Position numbers and translations under genes: made by a program
Shown here: one piece after another, positions 42,948 to 61,079 of the stretch
Position numbering within the stretch: the first letter of the stretch is position 1
Layout: every line of letters begins with the position of its first letter
Notes under the pieces: model-generated
Told to the model about the DNA's origin: nothing
What the model saw: the letters and a program-made list of their open reading frames with translations, nothing else
The model's database searches: none
Assembly: GCA_021372615.1 (NCBI GenBank)
Contig: JAJFUB010000013.1
Coordinates: forward strand, 62,001 to 126,000
Direction: 5' to 3'
From: a bacterium
Lineage (GTDB): Bacteria > Armatimonadota > Zipacnadia > Zipacnadales > UBA11051
DNA: 64,000 nt

Positions 42948-44564
42948 ATGAGGGTCGGTCGGTCTGTGCTGCTCGCATCCCTACCCGTGCTGCTGTCCGC
43001 GCTATCTCCCTTCGCCATCGCCGCCGACTGGCCCCAGTGGGGCAACACTCTGGGCCGCAACATGGTCGCCGTGGAGACTGGGCTGCCGAGCTACTTCTCC
43101 GTCGGCGTGCCCGGCCGCGGCGACTCATGGGTCACCAAGCCCGAGAACCTCAAGTGGGCCGCTCGCCTGGGCAGCCAGACGTATGGCAGCCCCGTTATCG
43201 CTGGCGGCAAGGTGTTCATCGGCACGAACAACGGCGCTCCCCGCAACTCTCGGCTGACCGGCGACCGGCACGTACTGATGTGCTTCAGCGAGGCTGACGG
43301 GAAGTTCCTGTGGCAGATGGCCACCCCGCGGCGAGCGCGCTCGGCGAACTTCAACCCCGACTACGGGATGCTCGGCCTGTGTGTCGCGGCCGCGGTAGAC
43401 GATAGCCGCGCCTACGTCGTCACCAGCCGCTGCGATGTGGTGTCCATGGCCCTGGACCCGCTGGGCCCGGAGAAGAAGCCCCTCTACGCCAAGGAAGCCT
43501 CCTACCTGGCCTTCCCCGCCTCCGAGCACGTCGGCGCCAGCCGCAGCGGCCCGGTCGTGAGCATCCGCCCCGGCGGTCCCGTCGCGCTCAGCCAGAGCGA
43601 TGCGAATCTCGCTTGGGTCTACGACATGGTCGCTGGCGCGGGCAGTTGGCCCCACGAAGCCAGCAGCTCGTCGGTGCTGCAGGTGGATGACGTGCTCTAC
43701 GTCGGCACGGCGAACGGCAAGGGCAGCGATCACCGCACCACTCCCTCGCCCGGCGGTGCCAGTCTGATCGCGCTCGACAAGCGTACCGGGAAGCTCCTGG
43801 CTCGAGACAACGCCGGGATCGCGCCAGGCGTCTTCCATGGCCAGTGGTCGTCCCCGTCCTATGGGGTCGTCAACGGACGTCCGCTGGTGTTCTACGGCGG
43901 CGGGGACGGCGTGTGCTACGCCTTCGACGCCAAGCCCGAGCCGCGCGGCAACGGCAAGCCGGGCGCGCTCCGCTGTGTATGGCGATGTGACGGGAACCCG
44001 CCCGAGGCGCGGCGGAGAGGCTACCGCGACTCCGCCGGGCCGAATGACATCATCGGCACGCCCGTCTTCGACAGCAACCGGGTCTACGTGGCCACCGGCC
44101 AGGACCCGCGGCACGGCCCCGGCCGGGGCTGCCTGACTTGCATAGACGCGACAAAGGCGGGCAAGCTCACCGACGGGGCGGGCGTGCGTTGGCGCTACAA
44201 GGGTATCGGCCGCACCTGCTCGACCGTCTCGGTGGCTGATGGCTTGGTGTATGCGGTGGACTTCGCCGGTACGCTGCACTGCGTGGACGCGCAGACCGGC
44301 AAGCTGGTGTGGAGCCAGAACCTGCAGTCCAAGGTCTGGGGTTCGACTCTGTGCGCTGACGGCAAGGTGTACGTGGGTACCGAGCGCGGTCAACTGTGGA
44401 TCATGAAGGCAGGCCGGCAGAAGCAGGTACTGTCCACCATAGCGATGCGCAGCCCGATCTACACGACGCCGGCCGCCGCGAATGGCGTGCTGTATGTGGC
44501 GACCCACCGGTACCTATACGCGTTCGCCAGGCCGAGCCAGGATGGCGAAGTGGCGCGTCGGTGA
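42948..44564 (+). CDS. Exported PQQ-like beta-propeller protein
   Basis: 538 residues with signal peptide (SVLLASLPVLLSALSPFAIA-AD). The mature start DWPQWGNTLGRNMVAVETGL is the usual opening of PQQ-like (BamB/alcohol dehydrogenase-type) propellers in planctomycete-like bacteria. Blades with A-x-D-x-x-G-K/T patterns recur: SEADGKFLWQM, IALDKRTGKLLARDN, CIDATKAGKL, CVDAQTGKLVWSQNL. Extracytoplasmic; binding partner or redox role unknown, and presence of a real quinone cofactor is not shown. Ends 58 bases before the tRNA. Confidence 0.85.
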   Translation: MRVGRSVLLASLPVLLSALSPFAIAADWPQWGNTLGRNMVAVETGLPSYFSVGVPGRGDSWVTKPENLKWAARLGSQTYGSPVIAGGKVFIGTNNGAPRNSRLTGDRHVLMCFSEADGKFLWQMATPRRARSANFNPDYGMLGLCVAAAVDDSRAYVVTSRCDVVSMALDPLGPEKKPLYAKEASYLAFPASEHVGASRSGPVVSIRPGGPVALSQSDANLAWVYDMVAGAGSWPHEASSSSVLQVDDVLYVGTANGKGSDHRTTPSPGGASLIALDKRTGKLLARDNAGIAPGVFHGQWSSPSYGVVNGRPLVFYGGGDGVCYAFDAKPEPRGNGKPGALRCVWRCDGNPPEARRRGYRDSAGPNDIIGTPVFDSNRVYVATGQDPRHGPGRGCLTCIDATKAGKLTDGAGVRWRYKGIGRTCSTVSVADGLVYAVDFAGTLHCVDAQTGKLVWSQNLQSKVWGSTLCADGKVYVGTERGQLWIMKAGRQKQVLSTIAMRSPIYTTPAAANGVLYVATHRYLYAFARPSQDGEVARR

Positions 44565-44622: not shown

Positions 44623-44699
44623 CGCGCGGTGGAGCAGTCCGGTAGCTCGCAAGGCTCATAACCTTGAGGTCAGAGGTTCGAATCCTCTCCGCGCTACCA
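44623..44699 (+). tRNA. tRNA-Met (CAT), initiator type, CCA encoded
   Basis: 77 bases. Acceptor stem CGCGCGG pairs with CCGCGCT except for the first pair, C1 opposite T72: the mismatch that marks initiator tRNA-fMet. D-arm GAGCAG...GGTAGCTC matches the initiator form. Anticodon CAT at 44657-44659 in a CAAGG/CCTTG stem (only two of the usual three G-C pairs), T-arm GAGGTTCGAATCCTC and ACCA end. The minus-strand serine recombinase gene reads into its 3' half, which marks this tRNA as the likely integration site of the downstream element. Confidence 0.9.
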
Positions 44700-46365
44700 A
44701 ACCATTCACCACTGGCTCCGGAACCTTGTACTGTATCTCTACAGTCAGGTCATCCGGGGTCAGTTTCATTTCTGAGACATGGTTGCGAACGAGTCTCTTC
44801 AGGTCTGCAGGGCTCCCTCCGGCGAGCAGGCGCTCCGTGTCGCGGCGGTAGGCCATGACCTCCTCGGTCTTCAGCATGGGTAGATCGCGAGCCACTCCTC
44901 GCTGGACCTCTGCCTGTTGCTTCTCGAACTGCAACTCTCGCAGACGCTCATTCGCCCGGGCTGCGTCCGCCAGGCCATCCTCTATGGCTGTGCGAACGTT
45001 GGCGATCTTCTGCTCGACCCCCTTCAGGCTCTTGTCGGCGGCCGCTGTCAGAGCCCCAGTCGCTCCACACAGGGCGCTCAGTTCGTCGTTGACCATCCGA
45101 GTGAACTTGCCAGCGTCACTGCAGAAGCCCAGAAGGCCCTGCAGCCCCGCCATGACCTCTGCCTCCACCTCCTGTTGGGGGACGTAGACCCCCGGCCCAC
45201 AGCCAAGGCCCTTGCGATATGGCTGGCTTCCGCACACATAGTAGTTCTGCCCCTCAGCCACGCGGCGGCCTATCATGTTGTTGCCACAGCGTGCGCACTT
45301 GAAGAGTCCCCCGGACAGTAGGTACCGCGATTCACGACTCCTGCCGTAGCCCGCGTCAAAGCCCTGGTGCCTCTTCCGTTCCCGCGCTTCCAGCACCGCC
45401 CGCGCTTCGTCTTCCGTGATGAGCGCCTGGTGGGCCTTCTCGACGATCAGCCACTCCGACGGGGGACGCTTCCGCCCGTTCTTGTGGTGGACGTTCCAGA
45501 CCCCGAAGCCGCAGTACTGCAGCAGCACGTTGGGCTCCAGCAGTGAGTTCCAGGTGGAGGTTGACCAGAAGGGATTCCGTCGAGCCGGGATCGCGTGATG
45601 GTTGCAGAAGTCGCGGAGTTCTTCGAGGGAAGCGCCGTTGGCGGCCAGATTCACAAAGCAATGCCTTGCCCATTCCATTGTCGGCTGTCCAGCGACGATG
45701 GTCTCGTCTGGGACCCAGACGCTCTTGGTCTGCGGACGGCCATGCTTGACCTGGCCTCGGTCGAGTTGCTGTAGCCGGTACCCCCAGAGAGGTTGTCCGC
45801 CATTCTTGTAGCACCAGCCGGTCTCCGGATCGCGCGTCTGCACGTTCGCGCGACAGCCCTTGCGCGTATGGAATGCCACCTCCCGACTGAAGGCCTCGTT
45901 CTTGGCGAAGGTGATGGCCTCCAGGTAGACCCCCGAGACGGTCTCCGTATCCATGTCCGGGTCGTTGAGGGACACAATCTCCAGCCCCTGCGCCTTCAGG
46001 TCCCGGAAAAGTTGCCTGCCCTTCATGCTGTCCCGCGAGAAGCGCGAAAGGTCGTGGACCAGTATGATCGTGACATCGGCCCGCGCCTTGGCCACCTCGA
46101 TCATCCGGCGAAACTCATGGCGGCGCTCCTCGTGCCGGAAGGCGCTTGCGGCTTCTTGGAAGGTCTCGACGATCTCTATGCCGTGGCGCTCAGCATATTG
46201 CTCGATCTCGCGCAGTTGCTCCGGGATGGACAGGCCTCGTTCCTCCTGGCCCTCCGTTGACACGCGGCCCCAGGCCAGAGCCTTGCGGGGTCCCTTCTCC
46301 GCCGCTCCTGAACCTGGCTGCGATGCGCGGATGATCTGTTGGGCGAGACTGATCTTGTCTTCCAT
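44656..46365 (-). CDS. Large serine recombinase
   Basis: 569 residues. The catalytic domain has LAWGRVSTEGQEERGLSIPE with nucleophile Ser36 and ILVHDLSRFSRDSMKGR with the Arg-rich helix. A recombinase domain follows (QPLWGYRLQQLDRGQVKHGR). The zinc-binding part FKCARCGNNMIGRR...YYVCGS...LGCGPG and a coiled coil (SLKGVEQKIANVRTAIEDG) are as in phage and ICE integrases. The last codons (ARRGFEPLTSRL) are the antisense reading of the tRNA T-arm and anticodon arm; the TGA lies in the anticodon loop. The ATG behind GAGGGG was chosen. Likely integrates or excises the element at the tRNA gene. Confidence 0.9.
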   Translation of the reverse strand: MEDKISLAQQIIRASQPGSGAAEKGPRKALAWGRVSTEGQEERGLSIPEQLREIEQYAERHGIEIVETFQEAASAFRHEERRHEFRRMIEVAKARADVTIILVHDLSRFSRDSMKGRQLFRDLKAQGLEIVSLNDPDMDTETVSGVYLEAITFAKNEAFSREVAFHTRKGCRANVQTRDPETGWCYKNGGQPLWGYRLQQLDRGQVKHGRPQTKSVWVPDETIVAGQPTMEWARHCFVNLAANGASLEELRDFCNHHAIPARRNPFWSTSTWNSLLEPNVLLQYCGFGVWNVHHKNGRKRPPSEWLIVEKAHQALITEDEARAVLEARERKRHQGFDAGYGRSRESRYLLSGGLFKCARCGNNMIGRRVAEGQNYYVCGSQPYRKGLGCGPGVYVPQQEVEAEVMAGLQGLLGFCSDAGKFTRMVNDELSALCGATGALTAAADKSLKGVEQKIANVRTAIEDGLADAARANERLRELQFEKQQAEVQRGVARDLPMLKTEEVMAYRRDTERLLAGGSPADLKRLVRNHVSEMKLTPDDLTVEIQYKVPEPVVNGLVARRGFEPLTSRL

Positions 46366-46528
46366 AGGAGCCCCTCTGGCTGCCTCTCGCGGACCTGCGA
46401 TGTGCACTCCCCCTGATTATACAACGTGACGGCGATTATGTCTTGATGGCAATGGCCTGACAGCGCCGCGCCTCCAGTACCGTGCCGCGGGGAAGGCGGC
46501 TGCACGGCTACTTCTGCCAGCCGTCCAT

Positions 46529-46639: not shown

Positions 46640-48751
46640 CTATGCCGTCTTCAGCCCGATCCCGGTGTACTGCCGCGTCGGCCTGCCGTTGTGCCGCAGA
46701 GTCACCTTGTCGAATCGCTCCCCGATGTTCGTGCCGAACGTCGTGCTTGACATGCGCTCGCGTGGAGGCAGCCCGGCCTCGTCGCAGTAGTCCTGGTAGG
46801 CCTTGAACAGTTCGCCAGCGGGCACTCGCAGGTTCTCGCCGGCCTCGCAGTATTGGGCGAGGAAGTCGCCGAGACGGTCGGACACTTCCTGCCACTGCTG
46901 CGAGGCCATCACGACTGCCTCCGGTTGCGGTAGCCCTTCGGCGATCCACAACCCTGCGCCCGCCACCGCCCAGGCGAGAATCCCCGGCAGTTCGGCCATG
47001 AGCCTGTCGCGCAAGTCCGGTTCGGCCTGCGGGCTGAAGCTCCGCGTGAAGGGTATGAGGCGCACCCTTCGCCAGAAGTCGAGGCTGTCGTCGTGAACAC
47101 GCGGTCGGTGGTTGCAGGCCAGCCAGAGCTTCCCGCAGGGCTGGAACGAATAGGGCATCGCATAGAGTGCCCGCGCCGTCATGGGGTCCCCGCCTGTCCA
47201 GGCTTTGAGACGGCTCTCGTTGAGACGGGCGGCCTCGGCGGTCTCGCTGGCAGTGACTACGCGCGCGCCGTCGAGAACCACCACGTCACAGGATACGCTC
47301 GCTCGGTTCGCGGCCTCGAAGGTGCCGAAGCCCGTGTTCGCGGCGTAGTCGCCGAGGACCGCGCGAAGAAGGTCAAGCAAGACCGACTTCCCGTTACTGC
47401 CGCGCCCATGTAGCAGGAAGAACACCTGCTCACTCATAGCTCCGGTGAGGCTGTATCCGATGGCCCGCCAGACGAAGTTGACAAGCTCCCCGTCATCGGC
47501 AAAGGCCTCCTGCAGGAACCGACTCCACCGCGGACACGTCGCCTGCGGGTCATAGGCCACGGTCGTCTGCTTCGTCACGAGGTCGGCGGCGGCACCGTCG
47601 CGCAGGGCCGCCGTCCGCAGGTCCACAATACCATTCGGCACACCTAGCAGGTAGGGGTCGGCGTCCCAGTCGTTGCCCCGATCCGCGATAGGCAACTCGT
47701 TCTTCGCCAAGTCGAGACACGCGGTCAGCTTCGCCGCCGACTCCGAGGAGAAGGCCCAGGTCCGTCCCTCCTTGTCATCGAGTCGGCCAGCAGCATCATA
47801 GCGCCGCCGCGCGGCTGCCTTGACAAGGCGCTTGAGTTCGCCGCCACTGTCCACTTGCCAACGGTGTTCCGCAAACAGCAGCCATCGGTTGCGCCGATGG
47901 TCGAATCGGACGCGATCACCGAACAGGTCGGCGAATAGCTCCGCGTTGCCGCTGTCGGTGCGGCGGTACGCATTGATGCGCGCGTCATGCGGTTCCAGGT
48001 CCCCCACCGGTTCGTACCGGCCTATGCTGGCGGCGATCCGGGCGACTTCCGAATCAGGCAGGGGCGGCTGGTATTCGCGGTTACGCGCTTGCAGTGCCGC
48101 CAGCATTTCCTCCGCCCTCAGTCCCGCTCGCCGCAACTTCCCGGCCAGGCTCGCCAGGGCGCAGTTCCGCTCGCCCTCTTTGATGGGTCCTACCGCTGCT
48201 GGTCTGCCCTTCTGCGGCTTGTCGGCGTCCGCGCGCAGGGCCTCCAGCAACCACTGCGGACACTCGGCCAGGGCGACTTCATCCGGGCTGCAGCCGTAAG
48301 CCCACGAGTATTCAGCCCCTGTGGGATGTATGCTTCCTGCCGCCACTACATAGCCGCCTGCGGCTTTCACGTGCAAGCCGGGTCCAACGGCTTCTCCCCG
48401 CGAGTCGTTCCTCACCGGGAATGGTGGATGCGCGAAGTAGAAGTGAGTCCCGCCGCCGGGCCTCCCGGTCTCGACGGCCAAGGTCGCAGGCATGGGCTTG
48501 CCGGCCAGAGAGGAGCGCCCCTCCTCGTCGTCAACGTCCAGCACGAGCAGCCCCGAGGTCGGGCCGCAGGCAATGCCGACGTTCGCGAGAGACCACTTCC
48601 CCCACCATGCCCTGATCTGCGCCGGGTCGGTGGTTGCCTCAGTGACACCGTGCTCATTCTGAGGTCTCTTGGCGCGCGGTCTGAGAGGAAAGACGGGCCA
48701 TCCTCGGGCCGCATACGCTAAGGCTGTCTCCACGAACACCCTAGTTGACAT
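46640..48751 (-). CDS. Primase-polymerase / D5-type SF3 helicase
   Basis: 703 residues. The N-terminal 190 are a bifunctional primase-polymerase: AARGWPVFPLRPRAKRPQNE, the catalytic D-x-D in SGLLVLDVDDEEGR, GGGTHFYFAHP and the later His-containing AGGYVVAAGS. A linker leads to the D5_N/SF3 helicase with Walker A in FFLLHGRGSNGKSVLLDLLR and VVLDGARVVTASETAEA/LWLACNHRPRV as later helicase motifs. Typical replication protein of phages, plasmids and integrative elements. GAGGG precedes the ATG. Should initiate replication of the excised element. Confidence 0.9.
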   Translation of the reverse strand: MSTRVFVETALAYAARGWPVFPLRPRAKRPQNEHGVTEATTDPAQIRAWWGKWSLANVGIACGPTSGLLVLDVDDEEGRSSLAGKPMPATLAVETGRPGGGTHFYFAHPPFPVRNDSRGEAVGPGLHVKAAGGYVVAAGSIHPTGAEYSWAYGCSPDEVALAECPQWLLEALRADADKPQKGRPAAVGPIKEGERNCALASLAGKLRRAGLRAEEMLAALQARNREYQPPLPDSEVARIAASIGRYEPVGDLEPHDARINAYRRTDSGNAELFADLFGDRVRFDHRRNRWLLFAEHRWQVDSGGELKRLVKAAARRRYDAAGRLDDKEGRTWAFSSESAAKLTACLDLAKNELPIADRGNDWDADPYLLGVPNGIVDLRTAALRDGAAADLVTKQTTVAYDPQATCPRWSRFLQEAFADDGELVNFVWRAIGYSLTGAMSEQVFFLLHGRGSNGKSVLLDLLRAVLGDYAANTGFGTFEAANRASVSCDVVVLDGARVVTASETAEAARLNESRLKAWTGGDPMTARALYAMPYSFQPCGKLWLACNHRPRVHDDSLDFWRRVRLIPFTRSFSPQAEPDLRDRLMAELPGILAWAVAGAGLWIAEGLPQPEAVVMASQQWQEVSDRLGDFLAQYCEAGENLRVPAGELFKAYQDYCDEAGLPPRERMSSTTFGTNIGERFDKVTLRHNGRPTRQYTGIGLKTA

Positions 48752-48838
48752 GAGTTCCCTCGCGGTAGGGGAGGGATCAAAGCGGGGGCCGCACCGCGAG
48801 GAAGACGGCCCCACGCATCGATCCAAAGTTCTGCAGAG

Positions 48839-49180: not shown

Positions 49181-51220
49181 CTACATCTTGCCGCGCTCCT
49201 TGTGTGGACTCGACCTAAGCAGCTCCCTTAGGTGTAGTAGTGCCTGCTTGGGGTCGTCACCTGCGGCCTGTCGCGCCTTCTCCCAGACAGCGACGAAGGC
49301 CCCAGGCGAACCGGCTGCCTTGAAGTCAGCCTCGGCAAGCTCCTCCGCCCGCTGCCAAAGTGCCCTCTTCTCATTCTGCAGTAGCGTGTAGTTCTGTTTG
49401 CACACTGCACGCCCGCAAGTGCTGCCGCCGCGCTCGGCGAGGTAGAACGTGCCACATTCCGGCGCGTCGGCTTCTCGCTCCTCAAGCAGGTAATCCCAGT
49501 GCGCGGCGATACCAGAGGGCACGCGGCACTTGCGCAGACAGGGGTTCCCCGTCTTCGCGATCTGGAGAAGCAACCGCAATGTCCCGGCGATCCGCACGTC
49601 GTAGGTGCTGGCCTCCCATTCGGCCACCTCTCGCGTGTCAATCAGGAGGTCAACTCGTTCGTCGCATGGCTGTGGGCAGTAGCAGTCGCCGTCAGGATTG
49701 TTGTAGTTGAAGTACCCCTCGGTCTCGCCGAGGCCGCCAGCCATGATCCAGAACCGCGCCAGGCGCTCGCCCCTGCTGGCTACCTGTCGGAGTTGCTCTA
49801 CCTCGCCGAGGGCGAAGTCACGGAAACGTATTGCCCCTGTCGCGTCTTGAGTGGACGCCTCTCCTCCAGGACATATGGCATCTGCCACTCGCTGCAGCGT
49901 CAGCACGCAACCATAGAAGCGAACCCGTTCCTCCTCGTGATCTCGCACAATCCAGTGTGCTGGTGTGGAGCAACCGAGCACAATCGGGACCTCACTAAGA
50001 CCGACCTTGGCCTCGGCTTCCGCTCGCATCTGCTCAACAAGCTCGGGGTCAGCGTTCAGGAGGCCGAGGAGGCGCTGCTCTTGTGCCGAGATAGGCGGGC
50101 TCTCGGAGTAGTCCTCGTGCCAGGCCCATCCGAGATCGAGGACCTTCCGTGCGTCGTCATGCCCGGAAATCCCCGCCGCCTCTACGCCTTCTTCGGCCAG
50201 TGTCTTGGTGAGCAACTCCTTGGCTTCGCGCCTCCATCCGCCCGCCTTCAGCACCTCAACGAGTTGTGCTCTCATCAGAAGCCTCGAGTGGCCGAGCAAT
50301 GGGTCACTATCGTCCTTGAGCATCCCCAGCGACCGCTCCAATGCTCCCCGCGCATCGCCATACAGTCTGGCCTTCTGCTGCAGGTCCGCGAGCCTCTGCA
50401 GAGCGTAGAAGACGCCGAGTTCGCTCTTGCGGGTCACTGCCAGTTTCTCTTCAATGGACACCACCTGCGCCTGCAGCTCGGTCGCCCGCTGAATGTCATT
50501 TCTCTCTTCGCGGACGCGGGAGAGGTTGGACAGGATATTCGCTCGCGCTTGAGACTGATCGGATGAGTCGGCAGCGTCGGAGGCCGGCAACAGAGTCAAC
50601 GCGTCATTCAGTCGGTTCTCGGCGCTCGCATGATCCCCGCCGAACGACAACGCATAGCCAAGTTCGCTGAGGGCGTGTGCTTGCAGAACGGTCCTGTCAG
50701 CTTCATCGAGGTCCTTGCAGTGTTGGAGCCACTCGGCGGCAAGCTCATAGTACCTGATCGCATAGGGATAGGCAGCGCGCGGGGTCTCCGATCCCTGATC
50801 CTTGTACAGCAATGCTCGTCCGAGGGACTGGCAGGTATGGTACCCGAGGAGGCCAAGCTCCCCCACATGGAAGTGGCGGAGTGCGTTCGCGGCGTCGTAA
50901 AGCGTTGCCGAGAGTAGGAAATCATCGTCTTGCGCCAAAACGAGCAGAGTGGTTGCGCACTTCCTCACATCCTCTGCCGGCAAGCCGAGCGCCTCGGCCT
51001 GGCGTAGGTTGAGGGTAGCAAGCCGCAGCGTGGCGTAACTCGGCCCGGAACACTTCCATCCGCCGGCAAGGTGCTCGTCGAGTTCGAGGACATCTTCGGG
51101 CGCCACGTCGGGGAGATCGTGGTCCTCGATGACGATGTCATCGGGAGGACCCATGACAACGTCAGTGCACATGAAGAGCTGCACGACGGAGTTCTGCTCC
51201 GGGGTACCAGTCGCGGGCAT
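49181..51220 (-). CDS. TPR-type helical-repeat protein with Cys-rich C-terminal region
   Basis: 679 residues. Residues about 60-350 are helical repeats of TPR type (LLGYHTCQSLGRALLYKDQG, HALSELGYALSFGGDHASAE, NILSNLSRVREERNDIQRAT, LVEVLKAGGWRREAKELL). The C-terminal third has Cys pairs that could bind zinc: GDCYCPQPCDE, CLRKC, CGTFYLAERGGSTCGRAVC followed by a helix, resembling treble-clef tails seen in some regulators. No signal peptide. Encoded in the same direction as the Type III R-M genes, 63 bases from the HEPN-like gene. Could be a sensor or accessory protein of the defence island; not recognised further. Confidence 0.65.
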   Translation of the reverse strand: MPATGTPEQNSVVQLFMCTDVVMGPPDDIVIEDHDLPDVAPEDVLELDEHLAGGWKCSGPSYATLRLATLNLRQAEALGLPAEDVRKCATTLLVLAQDDDFLLSATLYDAANALRHFHVGELGLLGYHTCQSLGRALLYKDQGSETPRAAYPYAIRYYELAAEWLQHCKDLDEADRTVLQAHALSELGYALSFGGDHASAENRLNDALTLLPASDAADSSDQSQARANILSNLSRVREERNDIQRATELQAQVVSIEEKLAVTRKSELGVFYALQRLADLQQKARLYGDARGALERSLGMLKDDSDPLLGHSRLLMRAQLVEVLKAGGWRREAKELLTKTLAEEGVEAAGISGHDDARKVLDLGWAWHEDYSESPPISAQEQRLLGLLNADPELVEQMRAEAEAKVGLSEVPIVLGCSTPAHWIVRDHEEERVRFYGCVLTLQRVADAICPGGEASTQDATGAIRFRDFALGEVEQLRQVASRGERLARFWIMAGGLGETEGYFNYNNPDGDCYCPQPCDERVDLLIDTREVAEWEASTYDVRIAGTLRLLLQIAKTGNPCLRKCRVPSGIAAHWDYLLEEREADAPECGTFYLAERGGSTCGRAVCKQNYTLLQNEKRALWQRAEELAEADFKAAGSPGAFVAVWEKARQAAGDDPKQALLHLRELLRSSPHKERGKM

Positions 51221-51984: not shown

Positions 51985-54903
51985 TCAGGCCCTCCCTGCC
52001 AGTTCCGCCAGCACCTTCGGCATGTCCGTCATCTTCTTGACGACCGCGAACTCCCACTTGCCCCACTGCCCGGCGTTGTTGACCGCCCGCACCCAGCGTT
52101 GCGCCGCCGCCCACTTCTGCCGGTCAATCTCAGTCTCCTGGCCTTTGACCTCGATGAAGAGCATTACCCCGTTCCTCATGCGAACGAGGTAGTCGGGAAT
52201 GTAGGAGTGCGTGGTGTCGGCGAACTCGTACGGAATCACGAACCCGAGGTGGTCGTTCTTGGCATAGGCCTCAACCTGCTCCGAGGCCTCCAGGCAGAAG
52301 GCCGCGCTGCCTTCCCATAGCTCCGAGTCGAGCACGACGTGGCTGATATGGCTCTTGCGCGTCGGGCGGCACTCGCGCTCCGTCGAGAAGATCACGTCAT
52401 GCGTGGACCCCTTCGGGCGGAACCGCTCGATGCGCGGGAGAATGGCCGGCTCCCCCCGGTCGCTGTCGGGCTCGATCGCCTGCAGGAGTCGCTGGGCGAT
52501 CAGTTCGCGGTAGTTCAGCAGCCCGATCTCCTTGAGGTTGACGCCCTCGCACACTACCCGCCTGCGGATGAACTCACGCACGATCTGCAACACCTGCGGG
52601 AACAGTTGCGTCCGGGCCTTGAACCGGAAGGCCTCCTGCCTGTCCTGCCCGGCCAGGAGGTCTCTGGTGATCGTCTGCGCCAGGTCGAACTCGATGCTCT
52701 GCAGCCGCACCTCGCGGTAGAACGCCTCCCGCGTCTGGGTCACCGTCTCGCCGGGGCCGGCCAGCCCTGGCGGGCCGCCCTCGCTCCAGACCTTCGGGCG
52801 GGAGATCGTCGCGGTCGGGTCCACGTTCGGCTCGACCTTGACCTCGGGGATCGCGTCCAGGTCTGCCCTGATCCGGTCGCTGACTCTGTAGACGTACCCC
52901 TCCACCAGCGGGAACTCAATCGCCAGGTGCTTGCGCTCCGGCAGGTCCTTCACGATGGTCTTGTCGCGTTCCGGCGGCGCCGTTCGTTCCGCGCGCTTCT
53001 TGACCGGGATGACCTCGAAGGGCACCCCGTACACGTCCACATACTCCTCCGTGAGTAGCCCGGTCTCTTCGTCAACGGTGTAGTTGATCCGCCGCAGGCC
53101 TCGCCCCACGACCTGCTCGCACAGAAGCTGCGAGTCGAAGGCCCGCAGGCCGAGTATCTGCTTGACGTTGTTGGCATCCCAGCCCTCGGTCAGCATCGCC
53201 ACCGAGACCACGCACCGCACCTGCTCCCCCGGCTCGCCGGCCTTGCCGACCGTGGACACCTTCCGCCTAAGCTCGTCCCCGACCACCGTCCGCGTCTTGC
53301 CCTCTTCCTCATTCTCGGCCTCGGCGATCAGGCGCGAGTCAATGCGCATCGTCGGCTGGTACTCGTCCGTGTTTTGGAGCAGTTCCGGGAAGACCTGACC
53401 GGCGGCGCGCACCATGACCTTGCGCTTCTTGCCCTTCTCGTCTTCGACTTCTTCGGTGCGCTCGCCGCTAATGTGCTCGTACATGACCTGCGCCAGCGCC
53501 GTGTTATCGCAGACCACGATCATCGCTGGCGGGACCTCGCGGCCTTCCCTCTGGAACTGGTCCAGGCTCTGTTGCCACAGGCCCGCCAGTTGTTGCAGCG
53601 CACCGTCGGCACACTTGCAGATGGCCTCCGGCTTCGCCCGCCGGCGTCCGGTTGCGGCCGAGGCCGGGTCCTCTCGCTTCAGCTTGTCATTGATCCAGCG
53701 CCAGAGCGTGAAGTACTCCGGCTCCGTCCGGCCGGTGTTGCTGGCAACCGGCACGCGCGGTATCTTGACGAGGCCGCTCTCGATGGCGTCCACGAGGCCG
53801 AAGTCCGAGACGATCCAGGGGAACGGTGTGCCCTCCTCGTGGCCGCTGCCGCCGATGTAGAACGGCGTGGCCGACAGGTCCAGGCAGAAGCGAAGGCCCC
53901 GGTTGGCATTGATCCGGTCGAGCCCGGCCACCCAGACCGTCGCTTCCTCACGCTGGTCGCGCTGTTGCTGGGTCAGGCCCTCCAGTTCGTCCTCGCTCAG
54001 CGGCGGTGGGCGGTAGGCATGGTGGGCCTCATCGTTGAAAACCAGCAGGTTCTTCGCCGCGCCGAGGTCGTGCAGGACGCGCTTCGCAAAGGCCTCGTCG
54101 GACTCCCTGCCCCGCTGGCGAACACCACGCCTCCTGCCATCGTCCTGGACCATGAAGTCATGCCAGTTCGTGATGTGAATCCGGCCGCGCCCGATCAGGG
54201 TCCTGGTGCCGTCCGGCAGCAGGTCGAACTTGTCATAGTAGTTGCCGGGAGCGCCGGGGCGCAGGACTTGCAGGCGTTCTCGGATCGTCAGCCCCGGACA
54301 CACCGCCAGGATCGCCTCGGGGTACCGCTCCTTGTCGCCGCCCACCGCGCGGTTGAGCCAGGTCCAAGCCGCGATCATCGCCATGACCACGGTCTTGCCC
54401 GCGCCGGTTGCCATCTTGCAGCCATAGCGCCGCAAGCCCCCGCGCCCGTTCGCCAGTCCCGCCGCGCTCTCGTCTCTGTCCAGGGGCAGCCGCTGGCGCA
54501 CACTCCGGTCGCCGATCTCGTTCAGCCAGATGACCGTCTCCGCCGCCTCCAACTGGCAGAAGAACAGGCGCGGCTCGTGGTCCGTGCTCCACCAGTGCGC
54601 CAGCAGGTCCCGCGTCATCTTGGTCGCGCCGGGATAGCCGTCCTTGCGCCACTGCCGCACCTTCTGGCGTATTTCGTTCACCAGCTCCAGCGGATGAAAC
54701 TCCTCCTCCGTCACCAGCGTCATCTGCTGCTTCGCGCCGGCCTTGCGGGAGCGCTGCCAGTACCCGGCGTCGCGGCGGTGCCCCTCGATCAGCACCGGCT
54801 GCTTGTTCTCATACATCCAATAGCGCAAGGGCTCCTCGTATGGGGAGTTGAGGATGGGCTGGTCTACGGCAAGCTGTCGCGGCTCAGGCTCGGTCTTCCT
54901 CAT
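51985..54903 (-). CDS. Type III restriction enzyme, Res subunit
   Basis: 972 residues. SF2 helicase core: Walker A YGCKMATGAGKTVVMAM, DEAH-type Walker B LLVFNDEAHHAYRP, motif III LDLSATPF, and motif VI region EQVVGRGLRRINY. The C-terminus has a PD-(D/E)xK nuclease: SYIPDYLVRMRNGVMLFIEV followed by KGQ. It translocates along or loops DNA using ATP and cuts near unmethylated sites with its Mod partner. ATG overlaps the mod stop by four bases (coupled). All motifs look intact. Confidence 0.92.
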   Translation of the reverse strand: MRKTEPEPRQLAVDQPILNSPYEEPLRYWMYENKQPVLIEGHRRDAGYWQRSRKAGAKQQMTLVTEEEFHPLELVNEIRQKVRQWRKDGYPGATKMTRDLLAHWWSTDHEPRLFFCQLEAAETVIWLNEIGDRSVRQRLPLDRDESAAGLANGRGGLRRYGCKMATGAGKTVVMAMIAAWTWLNRAVGGDKERYPEAILAVCPGLTIRERLQVLRPGAPGNYYDKFDLLPDGTRTLIGRGRIHITNWHDFMVQDDGRRRGVRQRGRESDEAFAKRVLHDLGAAKNLLVFNDEAHHAYRPPPLSEDELEGLTQQQRDQREEATVWVAGLDRINANRGLRFCLDLSATPFYIGGSGHEEGTPFPWIVSDFGLVDAIESGLVKIPRVPVASNTGRTEPEYFTLWRWINDKLKREDPASAATGRRRAKPEAICKCADGALQQLAGLWQQSLDQFQREGREVPPAMIVVCDNTALAQVMYEHISGERTEEVEDEKGKKRKVMVRAAGQVFPELLQNTDEYQPTMRIDSRLIAEAENEEEGKTRTVVGDELRRKVSTVGKAGEPGEQVRCVVSVAMLTEGWDANNVKQILGLRAFDSQLLCEQVVGRGLRRINYTVDEETGLLTEEYVDVYGVPFEVIPVKKRAERTAPPERDKTIVKDLPERKHLAIEFPLVEGYVYRVSDRIRADLDAIPEVKVEPNVDPTATISRPKVWSEGGPPGLAGPGETVTQTREAFYREVRLQSIEFDLAQTITRDLLAGQDRQEAFRFKARTQLFPQVLQIVREFIRRRVVCEGVNLKEIGLLNYRELIAQRLLQAIEPDSDRGEPAILPRIERFRPKGSTHDVIFSTERECRPTRKSHISHVVLDSELWEGSAAFCLEASEQVEAYAKNDHLGFVIPYEFADTTHSYIPDYLVRMRNGVMLFIEVKGQETEIDRQKWAAAQRWVRAVNNAGQWGKWEFAVVKKMTDMPKVLAELAGRA

Positions 54904-57578
54904 AGCCCCCTCACCACCATGACCTCGTTCCCGCGCCGGTCAATCACCTTCACCGCCGCCTTGCCATGCTTGCCCTTCGAGAACGGCAGGGACTCCGTGC
55001 CGGCCAGCATCTCGAACTTCTCCTCGTCAATGACCCCGCGCAAGGCCCGCCCCAGCTTCTCCCATGCCGACCGATCCGGGAAGAAGGCCTGGCAGACGCA
55101 GAAGGTCCGCCCGTCATAGTCCGTGTCCACGAACCAGCCTGCGACCTTGTCGCCCCTGTCCGAACTCACGGAGCCGTCCAGCGGGTTGTAGATGTCCACG
55201 CCGAGCAGCTCCACGACGAAGCCCTCGTCCGTCTCGCGCAAGTCCACCTCCGGCTCGCCGAACACCGTGAAGAGCTGGCTGCTGGCCGTGGTCTTGAGCA
55301 GGCTGTGTCCGTCGTCGTCCGTCATCAGCAAGTCGGGGCGGATGTGCGACATGAACGCCCGCACCCGCTGGTGCGGGTCGGCGGCGATGACCGCCTGCGC
55401 CTCGGCGTCGAAGGCGAAGCCGCAGAAGATGATCCCGTCATAGCCGCCCATGTTCGCTTCCCGCAGGCCGTCCTCCACCTGCTGCGTCGTGATCGAGCCA
55501 TACAGTGGCCCGAAGGACAGGGCCACCTTCTTGAGGCCGGTCGCCCCGCCGTTGCCGGGCTCGCCCTCGGCATGGATGAACCCGCGCCCGCAACCTGTCA
55601 GGGTCGCGAAGACCATCTTCTTGTTGTTCGGGAAAGTCACCCCGTCCTTGCGCAGTAGCTCAATCAGCGTCTCGATGTGCTCCGCCGCTGAAGACGCCGT
55701 GTCCTGTAGGGCGGGGGCTTGTGCCCCGCCGCCTTCGGCCTCCCCCTCCATCTCCGGTTCCCCGCCAATCGGCGTCTCCTCCATCGCAGCCAGTGACGGC
55801 GGCGGGATCGCCTCCACCGTGAACGGCCCCGACACCCGCACCTTGTTCCGCGCCACCTCCGGCTGATCGTACAGCGTCTCCTGATCCGCGTTCGCGCGGA
55901 TGATCGCCTCGTTGGCCTCGCGCAGCAGGCGCTCGATCTCCTCGGGTCTGGTCTTGGGGTTCGCCTTGCGGATCGCCTCCCGCCGCGCCTCCACTCTCTC
56001 CGGGTCAAGCTCCGGGTTCTGAGCGATGGACTTGAGTGTGACGTGCGGCACGGTCTTGTACTTGAGGTCGCCGTCAAGGCCCGCCGCTTCGTCGGCCAGG
56101 TCATAGTAATCGAGGCGTGCAGTGAGGAGGCGTTGCCGCGCGAGAAAGACGGAAACGCGGGAGGTATCGCACGTGATCCAGCGCCGGCCCCACTGCTCGG
56201 CGACATAGGCCGTCGTGCCCGATCCGCAGGTCGGGTCCAGGACAATGTCGCCGGGCTTCGTAGTCATCAGAAGGCAACGTTCAACGACCTTCGTGTTGGT
56301 CTGCACCACGTAGCTGCGGTCGCTGACGCCTGCGGTATCCGTCCAGTTGTTGTCCCGCTCGAAGGCAGCGAAGTCATCAATGTACCTCACATACGCCAAG
56401 CGGTCTCCTTGCACCACAAGGCGATTGGCCGCCGACAGACGCGCCATGCCCTCGCTTGTAGTGGACCATCCGCGCGAGCCGGGTGGGTAGAACGTCTTCC
56501 CGTCAGCCACGACGGGGAAGTGCATTGCCGTCCCAAGTCCAGAGGGCCGGCCTTGCCGCTGTGAGGTGACATCGCCCAAACGATATGGCCTCGCTCTGGG
56601 ATCAATGCTGGCAGGATTGGCTACCTCTTCCTGAGTGAGTCGGCGACGCTCGCAGTTGCAGTCCTCGACGTACTGGTACATACCCGAACCAGCGCCACCG
56701 AGGCTCTTCTCCACGAATAGAGGGTTGTACGCAGGGCTCTCTTTGGCATACCAGAGCACATAATCTGTCGTCACGGAAAGGTACTTCGCGGTCTGCCCGG
56801 AGGTCTTCGTATAGTTGATAACCGCGACATACCTGTCGGCACCGAAGACCTCATCCATCATGGATCGCACGAGATGCAGATTCTCGTCGCTGATCTGCAC
56901 GAACACACTGCCGGTCTCGCTGAGCAGGTCTCTCGCCAGCAGCAGCCTGTCCCGCAGGTAGGTCAGGTAGGAGTGTATGCCCAGCGTCCAGGTGTCGCGG
57001 TAAGCCTTGATCTGCTCCGGCTCCCGCGTCAGGTCCTCATCCGCCCCGTCCTTCACGTCGCGCTTGTCCACGCGCGGCTGGAAGTTGCTGTTGTAGCCGA
57101 TCCCGTAAGGCGGGTCCAGGTAGATCATCTGCACCTGCCCGGCCATGCGCTCGCGCTCCAGGAGCGAGTTCATCACCACCAGCGAGTCGCCGAGGATCAG
57201 GCGGTTGGCCCAGTTCTCGGGGTAGGTGTAAGCCTTGATGACCTCATGCAGGGGTCGCTCCGGGTCGGCGAAGAGGCTCTTCTGCACCTCCTCGCGTCGC
57301 ACGGCCCGGACGATGGCCTCGGTGGACAGCCGCTCGTGGATGTAGAGGGGCACGCTGTCCACCTCGAAGGAGGTGTGCTCGGCCTTGCCGGCCCAGACCA
57401 GTTGCGGGTCCAGGTGCGGGTCATACTCATACCGCTTCTTGGGCTGCTGGGAGGCGGGGTCTTCGTAACCCGACAGGCCGGCGGGCGGGAGGTTGAGCCG
57501 GGGGTCGTCATGGCGGTAGTCGTCCACCTGCGGCCCGGTGTCGGTGCCGGCCTTGCGGGGTTTCTTGCGGTAAGCCAT
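54900..57578 (-). CDS. Type III DNA methyltransferase (adenine-N6), Mod subunit
   Basis: 892 residues, long for Mod. Motif IV DPPY at 155-158 (QMIYLDPPYGIGYNSNFQ) precedes the SAM-binding GDIVLDPTCGSGTTAYVAEQ, the beta-class order of Type III Mod enzymes. The variable target-recognition part lies between. After residue 560 comes an extra roughly 300-residue region (IETLIELLRKDGVTFPNNKK, YDGIIFCGFAFDAEAQAVIA) beyond the usual Mod length, as in the larger Mod relatives. Methylates adenine in the recognition site, and also recruits Res. ATG behind GGGGGA chosen. Confidence 0.92.
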   Translation of the reverse strand: MAYRKKPRKAGTDTGPQVDDYRHDDPRLNLPPAGLSGYEDPASQQPKKRYEYDPHLDPQLVWAGKAEHTSFEVDSVPLYIHERLSTEAIVRAVRREEVQKSLFADPERPLHEVIKAYTYPENWANRLILGDSLVVMNSLLERERMAGQVQMIYLDPPYGIGYNSNFQPRVDKRDVKDGADEDLTREPEQIKAYRDTWTLGIHSYLTYLRDRLLLARDLLSETGSVFVQISDENLHLVRSMMDEVFGADRYVAVINYTKTSGQTAKYLSVTTDYVLWYAKESPAYNPLFVEKSLGGAGSGMYQYVEDCNCERRRLTQEEVANPASIDPRARPYRLGDVTSQRQGRPSGLGTAMHFPVVADGKTFYPPGSRGWSTTSEGMARLSAANRLVVQGDRLAYVRYIDDFAAFERDNNWTDTAGVSDRSYVVQTNTKVVERCLLMTTKPGDIVLDPTCGSGTTAYVAEQWGRRWITCDTSRVSVFLARQRLLTARLDYYDLADEAAGLDGDLKYKTVPHVTLKSIAQNPELDPERVEARREAIRKANPKTRPEEIERLLREANEAIIRANADQETLYDQPEVARNKVRVSGPFTVEAIPPPSLAAMEETPIGGEPEMEGEAEGGGAQAPALQDTASSAAEHIETLIELLRKDGVTFPNNKKMVFATLTGCGRGFIHAEGEPGNGGATGLKKVALSFGPLYGSITTQQVEDGLREANMGGYDGIIFCGFAFDAEAQAVIAADPHQRVRAFMSHIRPDLLMTDDDGHSLLKTTASSQLFTVFGEPEVDLRETDEGFVVELLGVDIYNPLDGSVSSDRGDKVAGWFVDTDYDGRTFCVCQAFFPDRSAWEKLGRALRGVIDEEKFEMLAGTESLPFSKGKHGKAAVKVIDRRGNEVMVVRGL

Positions 57579-57834
57579 GCGGGAACGTCCCCCTGTCAGT
57601 GGCGCGGAATGGTGCGTGAGGCATCCGGCCAATTCGCCGCCGCAGGATCGTCTTCCTTTGTGCGCAGGGCGCGTTGTGGTGCGCCGTGGGGCGTCGAGAG
57701 GGGCTCAGGTATGGGGTTAGCCCTACTGCAGCCCTCGTCGCGTTACAGGCGTCTGTGGTTCGTCCTCGCTGCCCGCAAGCGCAAAGCGCGCCCTGGTGTC
57801 GGGACGCGCTCTGGTCACCGCTTCTGCCGCCCCT

Positions 57835-58578
57835 TCACGCGGCGGCGGCCAGGGCTTTTCCCCGGTATCCCCCTTCCGGGTTCGCCGCCGGGTCCACTCG
57901 GTTGACCAGGTAGTAGACGGCGCTGGTGCTCCACTTGCGGCCCCGCGCGGTCGGCACTCCCTCGGCATTGAACAGGTCGGCGATCTGCGCGATGGTCTTC
58001 CTTGCGCGCCGCAGGGCCACGGCCCGGTCGGCGATCTCCGCAGGCGTCCGCACCGGCGGCCCCAGCTTGACGCCCTTGGCCTTCGCCGCCGCCAGCCCTT
58101 CACGGGTCCGCTCGCTGATCTTCTTGGCCTCCTGTTCCGCAACCCAGGCCCGAATCTCCAACACCTCGTCAATGCGCTTGCCGTCTTTGACCGTCCAGCT
58201 CTCCGCGACCGACAGGATGTTCACGCCTTCCTCTTCGGCCTGCTTGACGGTCTTGAGTATGCCGATGTTGGAGCGCCCCAGGCGATCAATCTTCGGCACG
58301 ATCAGGGTCCCGGCTTCGCCGGCCATGATCCGCTGCAGCGCGTCCTTGAGGCCATCGCGCTCCTTGCGGCCCGAGGCCACCTCCACGACGATGTCAATCA
58401 GCTCCAGGCCCTCGCGGTCGGCTGCCTCCCGCAGTCGCGTCTGCTGACCGTCAAGGGAATGGCCGTTCTCGCCCTGCGCGACCGTCGAGACGCGCGCATA
58501 GCCGATAGCCTTTCCGGCTCCGTTGCGAACCCTCATGCTGATCTCCCGCTGCTTCTGATTGCCTCTCGGCCTTGCCAT
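57835..58578 (-). CDS. Small serine recombinase (resolvase/invertase)
   Basis: 247 residues. Catalytic domain with GYARVSTVAQGENGHSLDGQ (nucleophile Ser in RVST), LIVPKIDRLGRSNIGILKTV and the long E-helix; C-terminal HTH RRARKTIAQIADLFNAEG plus VPTARGRKWSTSAVYYLV. The N-terminal 20 residues are basic. GGAGG precedes the ATG, and a near-consensus promoter with an overlapping dyad lies upstream. Probably resolves multimers or inverts DNA of the element. Last residues are Ala-rich. Confidence 0.88.
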   Translation of the reverse strand: MARPRGNQKQREISMRVRNGAGKAIGYARVSTVAQGENGHSLDGQQTRLREAADREGLELIDIVVEVASGRKERDGLKDALQRIMAGEAGTLIVPKIDRLGRSNIGILKTVKQAEEEGVNILSVAESWTVKDGKRIDEVLEIRAWVAEQEAKKISERTREGLAAAKAKGVKLGPPVRTPAEIADRAVALRRARKTIAQIADLFNAEGVPTARGRKWSTSAVYYLVNRVDPAANPEGGYRGKALAAAA

Positions 58579-58613
58579 CTGAACTCGCCTCCTGCTGCCT
58601 GATTACAGGAGGG

Positions 58614-58652
58614 AGTATAGCATATATTCAGTAAACGGTCAACTGCTGAATA
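58614..58652 (-). promoter_or_regulatory. Resolvase promoter with overlapping dyad
   Basis: Minus strand TTGACC (58642-58637), 17-base spacer, TATACT (58619-58614). TATTCAG (58625-58631) and CTGAATA (58646-58652) form a 7-base inverted repeat around the -35, a likely autoregulatory site for the resolvase or a crossover half-site. Confidence 0.6.
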
Positions 58653-58707
58653 CGCGCCACAAGCCCCCGAAGTCGCCCCACAATCCTGAGTTCAGGCGGA
58701 GATCGAG

Positions 58708-59619
58708 ATGGAACCCGAGTGCAAGTTCGTCCAGAAGCTGATCGAGGAGATGGCCCAGGAGGACTGGGCCGCGGGGACCAAGCAGCGATTGCTGATCGAT
58801 GCCCGGCAGTTCTGCGAGTGGTACGCCGGCACGTACTCCGAGTACCCGGATCCCGACGATCTGGCTCTGAACAATGCCGACCTCAACGACTTCAAGGCCT
58901 ACTTGCTGCAACGCTGCCAGGCCAACACCACTGAGCGAAAGCTGGCCTCGCTTAGGGCGACGCTGAAGCTGGTGGATATCGCACTGCTCACCAAGCTTCG
59001 CTTCCCCAAGGTGCCACAGGCACCGAAGGCATCGCCCAGCGGCTTCAACCGCAAGGAGCGACTCGCGATCTTCCGGGCGGCCGACAAGCTGAGCCCCCGA
59101 GATCGTGCCATCGTGTACCTCGCCATGTGGACGGGAGCCCGCACGGGCAGCATCGCGGACGCCAAGCTCAGCGACGTGGAGATCAAGGCGAGATCGGGCA
59201 GCATCACCCACGACACGATGAAGGGCAAGGCCGGCGGCCACACCGTGCCGCTCAATGCCGAAGCCCGCGACGCACTGGCGGCTTGGATCAAGGTACGGCC
59301 CCCAGTGCAGCACGATTTCTTGCTCTGCTCCGAGAAGTATCCGTATGAGAAATTGAGCCGCTGGGCCCTCCACTCCGTCTTCCACAAAAAACTCGCGGTG
59401 CACGTTCCCGAGGGGCTGCGTGCCAAGCTCAAGGGCCTGCACCAGTGCCGCCACTCCCTCGCCAGGATGCTCGTCGCAGAGCAGGGCGTCAACTGGAGCG
59501 ACGCCATGCAGACCATGGGCTGGAAGTCGCCCGGCAGCGTCATGACCTACACCAGGGCCTCCAAGGACGACCTCGCCAAGCATCTGGAGAGAGCCGTCGG
59601 CGAGGACGTCGAGGACTGA
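58708..59619 (+). CDS. Tyrosine recombinase (phage-type integrase)
   Basis: 303 residues. N-terminal SAM-like/core-binding part (CKFVQKLIEEMAQEDWAAGT, DFKAYLLQRCQA) and catalytic domain with the full set: Arg145 in MWTGARTGSIADAKLSDV, Lys region MKGKAGGHTVPL, H-x-x-R at His245-Arg248 (LHQCRHSLAR), Gly271-Trp272 and nucleophile Tyr281 (MTYTRAS). GGAG lies ahead of the ATG. A long open frame on the other strand is its shadow. Divergent from the resolvase. May be the integrase of a second, nested or decayed element. Confidence 0.88.
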   Translation: MEPECKFVQKLIEEMAQEDWAAGTKQRLLIDARQFCEWYAGTYSEYPDPDDLALNNADLNDFKAYLLQRCQANTTERKLASLRATLKLVDIALLTKLRFPKVPQAPKASPSGFNRKERLAIFRAADKLSPRDRAIVYLAMWTGARTGSIADAKLSDVEIKARSGSITHDTMKGKAGGHTVPLNAEARDALAAWIKVRPPVQHDFLLCSEKYPYEKLSRWALHSVFHKKLAVHVPEGLRAKLKGLHQCRHSLARMLVAEQGVNWSDAMQTMGWKSPGSVMTYTRASKDDLAKHLERAVGEDVED

Positions 59620-59799
59620 GCGATTCCCGAACCCCTCCCCGTACGCGGGGACGGCGGGAGATCGCCGAGCGGCGGGGAGATCGGGTTGGACGCGTCGGCG
59701 AAGTGCGAGCCACCCTCCCCGCCCCTCGCCAAATGCATCCCAAAAACAAACTGCGTACGATGTGGCTCCATCCGTTTCATCGCCGGTATAAGTACCGGC

Positions 59800-60093
59800 A
59801 TGGAAAACTCAACCTACAACCGACTGATGGAGATCAACCCGGAGGCCCGGACGCTCATCGGGTTCGAGAGGGCCTACCTCGGCATCTCGATCTCGTACTC
59901 GGGCGACCCGGCCGCGACCTACGACTGGGAGAAATGCATCGAGATCCTCATGGAGAGTGGGATGGACCGCGATGATGCCGAGGAGTACTTCGACGCCAAC
60001 GTGTTTGGCCTCGGCGGACCCGGCACCCTACCGCTCTTCCTCCAGCTCGACGAGGATGGCGATGGGACTCCGGCGGATGGGACCCAGGGCTGA
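59800..60093 (+). CDS. Small conserved-looking acidic protein
   Basis: 97 residues. ARTLIGFERAYLGISISY, YDWEKCIEILMESGMDRDDA and EEYFDANVFGLGGPGTLPLF form a compact alpha/beta pattern that I have seen in short hypothetical proteins of elements and archaea (Y-D-x-x-K-C-I ... E-Y-F-x-x-N-V-x-G); function unknown. There is no ribosome site: a perfect hairpin GCCGGTA/TACCGGC (59782-59799) abuts the ATG and contains TATAAG, so the transcript may be leaderless or the start may lie upstream. The frame is open for 38 codons before it. Confidence 0.55.
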   Translation: MENSTYNRLMEINPEARTLIGFERAYLGISISYSGDPAATYDWEKCIEILMESGMDRDDAEEYFDANVFGLGGPGTLPLFLQLDEDGDGTPADGTQG

Positions 60094-60207
60094 GGGCACC
60101 GGAAATCCGGGAGGGGGGTGGCCCCAAACATTTAGGAGTCCCCCTGGACCGCTCCGTCGTGATGCCGATTTCCGGGGGGCTGCTCCGCCATCTCTCTCGG
60201 AGATCGG

Positions 60208-60504
60208 TTATGCCGGCGGGAGATCCCGGAGGGCCTTGCTGATCCACGGCTGACTGCATCCCAGAGCCTTCGCCAGCTCGGACTGGCTGCGATACCTCCC
60301 CGACTCCAGCAGCCGGCGGAAACGCTCCGCACGCTCGACCGGGGACTCCTTGGGCAACGGCTTGGGCGGGGCCGAGGACGGAGATCGACCGTTGCCGAAC
60401 TCCAGGATCACGGGGAACTGCAAGGACACCAGGATCCGTCGCTGGGAGACCGAGGGGCTACCAATAATACCCTGAAATGGCCTCAGAATGGCTTCTGAGG
60501 CCAT
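60208..60504 (-). CDS. Possible small HTH protein (ParB/KorB-like helix-turn-helix)
   Basis: Up to 98 residues. The C-terminal RFRRLLESGRYRSQSELAKA followed by LGCSQPWISKALRDL is a good helix-turn-helix of the ParB/KorB kind. The N-terminal half is Pro-rich and low in structure. The most upstream ATG lies inside the perfect palindrome and lacks a ribosome site, so the true start may be a later GTG. Could be a remnant or a small DNA-binding regulator of the element end. Moderate confidence in the domain, low in the start. Confidence 0.45.
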   Translation of the reverse strand: MASEAILRPFQGIIGSPSVSQRRILVSLQFPVILEFGNGRSPSSAPPKPLPKESPVERAERFRRLLESGRYRSQSELAKALGCSQPWISKALRDLPPA

Positions 60505-60506
60505 TT
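60475..60506. repeat. Perfect 14-bp palindrome with 4-base loop
   Basis: AAATGGCCTCAGAA (60475-60488), loop TGGC, TTCTGAGGCCATTT (60493-60506), followed on the plus strand by TCTTTGG. Could be a bidirectional terminator or an operator for the adjacent HTH gene. Confidence 0.7.
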
Positions 60507-61079
60507 TCTTTGGCCAGGCCCTCCTGAGTCAACCCGCCGAAACGTGCCAAAACGGCCCCGTGGTTCGCAAGGTTTGGCGCGTTCGGCTTTGTCAGGTGGT
60601 GCATGACTTCTGCGCTAGCGGGGCAGCCGTGGCTGTGCCCGGCCCTGCGCAAACCCAGCAAGTAGCGAGGCAGATGGAGGTAGTAGCGGATAGGTGCGGA
60701 GAGAGTAGAAGCACTGCGTGTCTCCAGGACCTGCGATCTGACCAACTGCCGGTGCTCCGCCCGGAAGGGGGCTCCCTTCTGATGTCGGTCTCAACCGGGA
60801 TTCGAGTGGCAACCTACAGTTTCCTGTGGGCAATCCAGCCAACCCATTTCCCTCCCGTGGATGACGCCATGGGTGTCCCATCCAGGCGGCCGGTGCGCCA
60901 GGACCTCTTCGCGGAGGCGCAGCGAGGCGTTGACGATCGGCGGCGGGGCCAGTGTCTGCTGTCTATGGTGACTGGTTGCGGCCGCTGGCAGTGACGTCTG
61001 CTGCTGCCTCAGCCAATCCGCCATCACGACAGCCGTTGCCGGCCCCAGCGATCCGCTGCCACAACGGATGATAGGGTCA
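60507..61079. other. Stretch without a supported gene
   Basis: About 570 bases between the palindrome and the NHL gene end. Open frames exist on both strands but show no motif, no ribosome site and a composition like random frames. May be decayed sequence at the edge of the element. Confidence 0.5.

Follow-up and report, generated by a model that had tools for sequence, protein, structure and literature searches.

A serine-recombinase element probably integrated at the initiator tRNA gene of a Zipacnadales bacterium

In all likelihood, a mobile element of about 54.9 kb was inserted site-specifically by its own large serine recombinase (LSR) into the sole initiator tRNA gene of its host. The element starts in the window, that is, the whole 64,000-nucleotide stretch of DNA that was analysed, and extends past it to about window-equivalent position 99530 (C13:161530; C13 is the contig holding the window, and C13 coordinates are contig positions). 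Directly visible are the anatomy of the left junction, a direct repeat at the far end, a single tRNA of initiator type, a family-wide pattern of LSR genes ending in tRNAs, and an attP-like form on a plasmid that carries a distantly related LSR. The host genome (G000) has a size of 6.41 Mb, is 96.7% complete and gives 44 tRNA matches. The features of the window are as follows.

43062–44564 (+): host gene, PQQ-like beta-propeller; left flank, outside the element.
44623–44699 (+): tRNA-fMet gene (CAT; ARAGORN and Rfam), an attL-like junction with a host 5' half and a 3' half probably supplied by the element.
44648–44672 (+): 25-bp core common to the right end, comprising the anticodon arm, the variable loop and the first T-stem base.
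44656–44658 (−): TGA stop of the LSR, complementary to U33-C34-A35 and located at the anticodon-arm dyad centre.
44656–46407 (−): LSR, identified by Pfam domains; the gene ends inside the tRNA.
46640–48826 (−): Prim-Pol/PriCT/D5-type primase-helicase of the element.
49181–51220 (−): element protein with a weak TPR match.
51985–54903 (−): ResIII helicase with a weak TnsA-like nuclease match, type III restriction-like.
54900–57632 (−): type III-like DNA methyltransferase.
57633–64000 (no strand given): remaining part of the element in the window, including an NHL-repeat protein at 61080–62849.

LSRs are in general built from a resolvase, a recombinase and a zinc-ribbon domain, in that order. In the window LSR, all three (PF00239, PF07508 and PF13408) score above cut-off. 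The active-site context R-V-S-T ... S-R-F-S-R is of resolvase type and contains what we take to be the catalytic serine; the catalytic domain can be aligned to that of the TP901-1 integrase (E 2e-10). An ATG at 46365 (569 aa), 14 codons inside the listed ORF, is the likelier start because of an upstream purine run. At the other end of the gene, the final 14 codons including the stop (VARRGFEPLTSRL*) lie wholly within the tRNA gene and run antisense through the T-arm. As the anticodon occupies 44657–44659 and the TGA complements U33-C34-A35, the recombinase does end inside the anticodon loop, as a sequence-only reading of this DNA had stated. The passage through the T-arm, which that reading had also stressed, is a real overlap but not a protein feature, since the frame in which the tRNA is read varies among related LSRs. 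LSRs ending in tRNA-fMet mostly stop at tRNA position 34 and otherwise at position 56, with differing frames, and the letters of the tail track the acceptor stem (VARRGFEP with CCGCGC, VAGAGFEP with CCCCGC). Conservation of the antisense tail as protein was considered and rejected: the sister LSRs L040 and L041 (support 100/98) stop at positions 34 and 56, in different frames. Because sisters differ in this way, the tail is best read as a by-product.

Long antisense frames also cross other tRNA genes of this genome. Among 44 distinct tRNA sequences, tRNA-Ala is covered by a frame of 505 aa and tRNA-Gly by one of 315 aa, both without a Pfam match; an antisense ORF across a tRNA is by itself nothing special in this GC-rich genome. 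These two frames speak for a mere coincidence of convergent genes in GC-rich DNA, an explanation that is nevertheless vanishingly improbable and already contradicted by the repeat and the family pattern. The ORF in question encodes an integrase, a direct repeat lies at the far end, and the identity of the ORF as an integrase overlapping a tRNA is far beyond chance. In addition, 7 of 30 LSR loci chosen by PF07508 score, regardless of tRNAs, terminate at a tRNA or across it, three of them at tRNA-Asn in a single family. The present genome alone, with five PF07508 matches, has three LSRs that end in tRNAs: the one at fMet, L233 in tRNA-Asn(GTT) (C29:557-2817) and L234 in tRNA-Asp(GTC) (C95:54635-56241).

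Initiator tRNAs are distinguished by the lack of a Watson-Crick pair at 1:72, by A11:U24 and by three G:C pairs at 29-31:39-41. The anticodon CAT is found in three tRNAs of the genome, two of which have G1:C72. Because only the window tRNA combines C1 x U72, which is not a Watson-Crick pair, with A11:U24, it is very probably the sole initiator tRNA gene found in this genome. Its anticodon stem departs from the three G:C pairs (A29:U41, G30:C40, G31:C39); of the 29 other initiator-type genes in the order, 28 have the same CAAGG/CCTTG stem, with A:U at 29:41.

At the far end, a perfect 25-bp direct repeat of the core is positioned on the same strand at C13:161506-161530, 54,858 bp away from core to core. 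It is followed by a decayed T-arm and an acceptor strand ending in ACCA, the whole remnant spanning C13:161506-161563. A genome-wide DNA search with the tRNA region gave one other match, C13:161506-161544, where no tRNA gene is predicted, and, with up to 3 mismatches allowed, a 22-base core has only two copies in 6.4 Mb. When 81 kb were scanned by local alignment, the right remnant scored 168, all other places outside the tRNA 99 or less, and the reversed control at most 93. The tRNA 3' end thus has the right-hand copy for which a search had been suggested with the first reading: 25 perfect bp plus a decayed 3' half, 54.9 kb away. Together with the initiator-like character of the tRNA (1:72, A11:U24), this repeat supports a serine-recombinase element targeting an initiator tRNA, as the earlier reading had it. 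The arrangement shares with the tyrosine-integrase tRNA islands (Islander signature, anticodon subsite), as described in passages of PMC4383910, an intact tRNA, an integrase gene directly beside it, a displaced 3' fragment forming the far-end direct repeat, and a core in the anticodon arm. It differs in its tRNA-proximal integrase, which is a serine instead of a tyrosine recombinase.

The tRNA-proximal genes of the element encode the LSR, the Prim-Pol/D5 primase-helicase and a type III restriction-like pair (the ResIII protein and the methyltransferase). Past about window 58 kb, the content shifts from mobility and restriction to NHL, ankyrin, PP2C, FHA, FHA-ABC transporter and protein-kinase genes. 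This shift, as well as older insertions at the same tRNA visible to the right, would fit a composite of tandem fMet insertions, in which the LSR element is shorter (about 11-15 kb if it comprises, for example, the genes for LSR, primase and type III restriction) and has lost its own right end. We consider this possible but rather unlikely; between the tRNA and 161.5 kb, the local-alignment scan revealed no other tRNA-like remnant above noise. The preferred reading is that of one element bounded by the two cores. GC content is about 0.66-0.69 left of the tRNA and 0.62-0.67 right of it. No structural phage gene was recognised in seven element proteins compared with PHROGs, apart from a weak partial head-closure match in the ResIII protein. 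A run of similar serine/threonine kinase genes (GGFxIxRELGRGGMG) occupies C13:135290-158720 (partly L004) within the element, and PADLOC matches one element kinase to PD-T4-6 kinases.

The initiator tRNA locus was compared with 29 others of the order, five of which have under 400 bp of 3' flank, too little for a judgement. No LSR ORF is recognisable at tRNA-fMet in these 29 members: antisense frames over the T-arm reach 314 aa at most, and the longest one has no more than 136 aa where it ends inside the tRNA. All 29 also differ from the window in the T-stem, which is AGAGG/CCTCT here and GCAGG/CCTGC in all five same-family relatives; this difference suggests that the 3' half of the present tRNA was brought by the element. 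The right remnant was rejected as proof of such a T-arm replacement, as its T-arm fits both versions equally (56 for the present tRNA against 57 for the family type).

A tyrosine recombinase gene (C13:164660-165679) is located 3.1 kb to the right of the right core. Its homologue in a related genome, G264 (60% amino acid identity over 327 residues, 69% DNA identity over 881 bp), lies about 0.6 kb from tRNA-fMet, a spacing expected if 54.9 kb went in between the tRNA and the gene. No genome with both element flanks joined was found. In the comparison with relatives lacking the element, which had been suggested along with the first reading, 29 loci thus show no recognisable LSR ORF, but the one flanking gene found in common is that on the right, in G264.

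The same recombinase gene could be given a larger role. A tyrosine integrase, this one or a relative, would have integrated the region at fMet, and the LSR would be a passenger beside the tRNA. Consistent with this, a full tyrosine recombinase and an N-terminal fragment of a second one (C13:162197-162823; L002, L006) are found right of the element, the G264 homologue sits near fMet with a displaced tRNA piece, and the anticodon subsite is usually used by tyrosine integrases according to PMC4383910 and a further published passage. On the other hand, the tyrosine recombinase is outside the element bounded by the repeats. In the flanks of other tRNA-ending LSRs, mostly of 1.5-3 kb, phmmer detected no strong relative of it (weak ones only, at L060 and L192). 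It is always the LSR that is at the tRNA, and an LSR is also found at a tRNA half on a plasmid with an attP-like form. This passenger role of the LSR is therefore improbable, and integration by the LSR itself is retained.

Since the G264 gene is a tyrosine recombinase and a displaced tRNA piece accompanies it, the fMet tRNA has received several insertions, and the right border is blurred by older elements in tandem. On the reasoning customary for tandem arrays, the LSR element would be the latest, as it is adjacent to the tRNA. Beside the tyrosine recombinases right of the element, CCGCGCTACCA is found at C13:164554-164564, among traces of older fMet insertions. In G264 (L230, G264:C23:151743-152230), fMet is succeeded by a 376-bp stretch, after which comes a displaced piece of tRNA that contains an insertion. 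The ORF in the 376-bp stretch may be GIY-YIG-like, and the stretch could represent a minimal insertion at this site. A motif close to RGGTTCGCAAGGTYYG is present near displaced tRNA-fMet pieces (C13:161415, C13:122562, L230 and L231); it also precedes the tyrosine recombinase in G264 and occurs inside the element.

Distant LSRs point in the same direction. Alphaproteobacterial LSRs with about 22-27% identity to the window LSR, and their relatives, likewise terminate in tRNA-Met (Paracoccus, Haematobacter, Loktanella, Azospirillum, Novosphingobium, Sphingobium, Rhodobacter). Eighteen phage or plasmid LSR regions comprised nine with tRNA-Met at or near the LSR end, two with an attP-like half, both from Bradyrhizobium barranii strain 323S2, and seven with neither. 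On the circular, conjugative plasmid pBb323S2b of this strain, the LSR ends in the 3' half of tRNA-fMet. Similarity to the tRNA breaks off in the D-stem, at its 3' strand, and a search of the whole 294,915-bp record gave no tRNA 5' half. Such an attP-like arrangement is what an unintegrated attP should look like. Since its tRNA border is near that of the window element, at the start of the anticodon arm, the crossover would be in or next to the anticodon arm in both. The LSR of pBb323S2b is a distant relative, and the plasmid supports the mechanism by analogy. Among viral contigs, no relative was confirmed, and the LSR genes of Rhizobium phage RR1-A, Microcystis phage Mae-JY29 and Moorella phage MCACPph1 gave no tRNA at their ends. 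VapC-type toxin-antitoxin genes adjoin LSRs on Bradyrhizobium and Komagataeibacter plasmids (L241, L263, L266), one of them annotated as a tRNA(fMet)-specific endonuclease.

In the mechanism that we propose, attP would bear a second version of the tRNA 3' half, and the LSR would recombine it with the tRNA gene, which would serve as attB. The anticodon arm would be the shared att core, and integration would rebuild the tRNA. The LSR gene, at the element end, would converge on the tRNA and take its final codons and stop from the antisense of the 3' half; attP and the integrase 3' end would be one stretch of DNA. Because the stop and the surrounding bases fall in the block common to both element ends, integration is predicted to leave the LSR protein unchanged, provided that the right end is the repeat found. 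An integration-dependent change of the LSR C-terminus was rejected for this reason, under the same proviso. The anatomy is clear and the mechanism is well supported up to the catalytic step; in the recombination itself, catalysis would fall to the LSR, with a crossover in the anticodon loop and a 3' half of element origin.

LSR relatives were collected from 291 genomes of the phylum, searched at the protein level, and from named genomes by an alignment search. The resulting tree, enriched for relatives of the window LSR, contains 67 LSRs of at least 400 aa after removal of ten duplicate loci, shorter pieces and the copy L200. In total, 34 of the 67 terminate within a tRNA or run over it (Met 17, Glu 6, Asn 5, Leu 2, Gly 2, Cys 1, Asp 1). 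In the clade of the window LSR (support 100/99), 21 of the 27 full-length proteins do so, at fMet, Glu, Cys, Gly and Leu tRNAs, and two of the six others stop at a contig edge. The clade also has members from Acidobacteriota, Planctomycetota (Brocadiaceae) and Bacillota. All tRNAs at LSR ends are convergent, on the opposite strand, with no strand filter applied. The tRNA labels are clustered on the tree, with 20 changes compared to a shuffled mean of 30.8, indicating that targets switched repeatedly and that tRNA use is found in more than one LSR branch. For the tRNA-Asn element on C29, the search for a right end gave two 12-bp matches only, in an alignment no better than the reversed control; for the tRNA-Asp element on C95, a second copy was absent in 40 kb. 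Among the LSR contexts, only that of G000 yielded a displaced tRNA half, which speaks against the main reading; none was found in nine others (G227, G223, G248, G192, G228, G191, G195, G226, G220) that are mostly cut by contig ends, although G192 was searched over 60 kb, and no plus-strand tRNA was found in the stretch taken of context G242.

From this family pattern, we lean towards a broader view. A widespread, hitherto unrecognised class of serine integrases would have evolved the use of tRNA genes more than once, at the same anticodon-arm subsite as tyrosine integrases. The anticodon-arm dyad would be the serine att core, the integrase gene would end at or near the dyad centre, attP would double as the integrase 3' end, and the choice of tRNA (fMet, Glu, Asn, Asp, Leu, Gly, Cys) would have switched repeatedly. 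If true, this provides a natural set of LSRs with conserved, universal targets. LSRs are genome-engineering tools, and a clade targeting universal, annotated genes that are left intact would be a useful source.

Classical LSRs, of which TP901-1 integrase is an example, mostly target protein-coding or intergenic DNA. A published passage likewise gives coding regions as the commoner targets of serine integrases, and a 2015 source (PMC4383910) states, in the passages concerned, that serine integrases are not known to target tRNA genes. Its passages on Islander-type island finders describe searches for tyrosine integrases only; such finders would miss islands if LSRs also use tRNA genes. In the pertinent passage on Mycobacterium abscessus (PMC10654092), tRNA and tmRNA sites are named for Int-Y systems only. 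The remark that a serine recombinase in a tRNA is less usual holds for the literature (PMC4383910, in part), whereas LSRs that end in tRNAs are common in this phylum. An initiator tRNA as target, also singled out as notable, is less so: published passages already report tRNA-Met/fMet as target of tyrosine-integrase elements, and the novelty is the enzyme type. The preference for tRNAs has been explained, in one published passage, by the core-overlap-core geometry of tyrosine integrases. This explanation would be insufficient if LSRs use tRNAs as well, and the symmetry of the anticodon arm may attract two unrelated enzyme families.

Open-licence PMC papers yielded no description of a tRNA-targeting LSR family, and others may hold one; judging from part of PMC12424338, the TIGER/Islander resource may already contain such islands without comment. 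One later precedent is Paracoccus phage vB_PamS_Pami6 (PMC6536676, in part), a serine-recombinase phage with a predicted integration site in tRNA-Met. It differs in being alphaproteobacterial and the single predicted case in that paper, and was compared by description. Streptococcal rumA serine elements, in the portion of PMC4701971 that describes them, likewise have a repeat at one end inside the integrase gene, whose 3' end overlaps att. In contrast to the rumA case, where target and integrase C-termini are exchanged and the frame is changed, the stop here is in the shared block and the tRNA target is kept intact. At L046/L139 and L044/L137, the LSR frames cross the whole of tRNA-Cys into tRNA-Gly, or tRNA-Glu plus 100 bases beyond, and integration could alter the integrase C-terminus at these loci.
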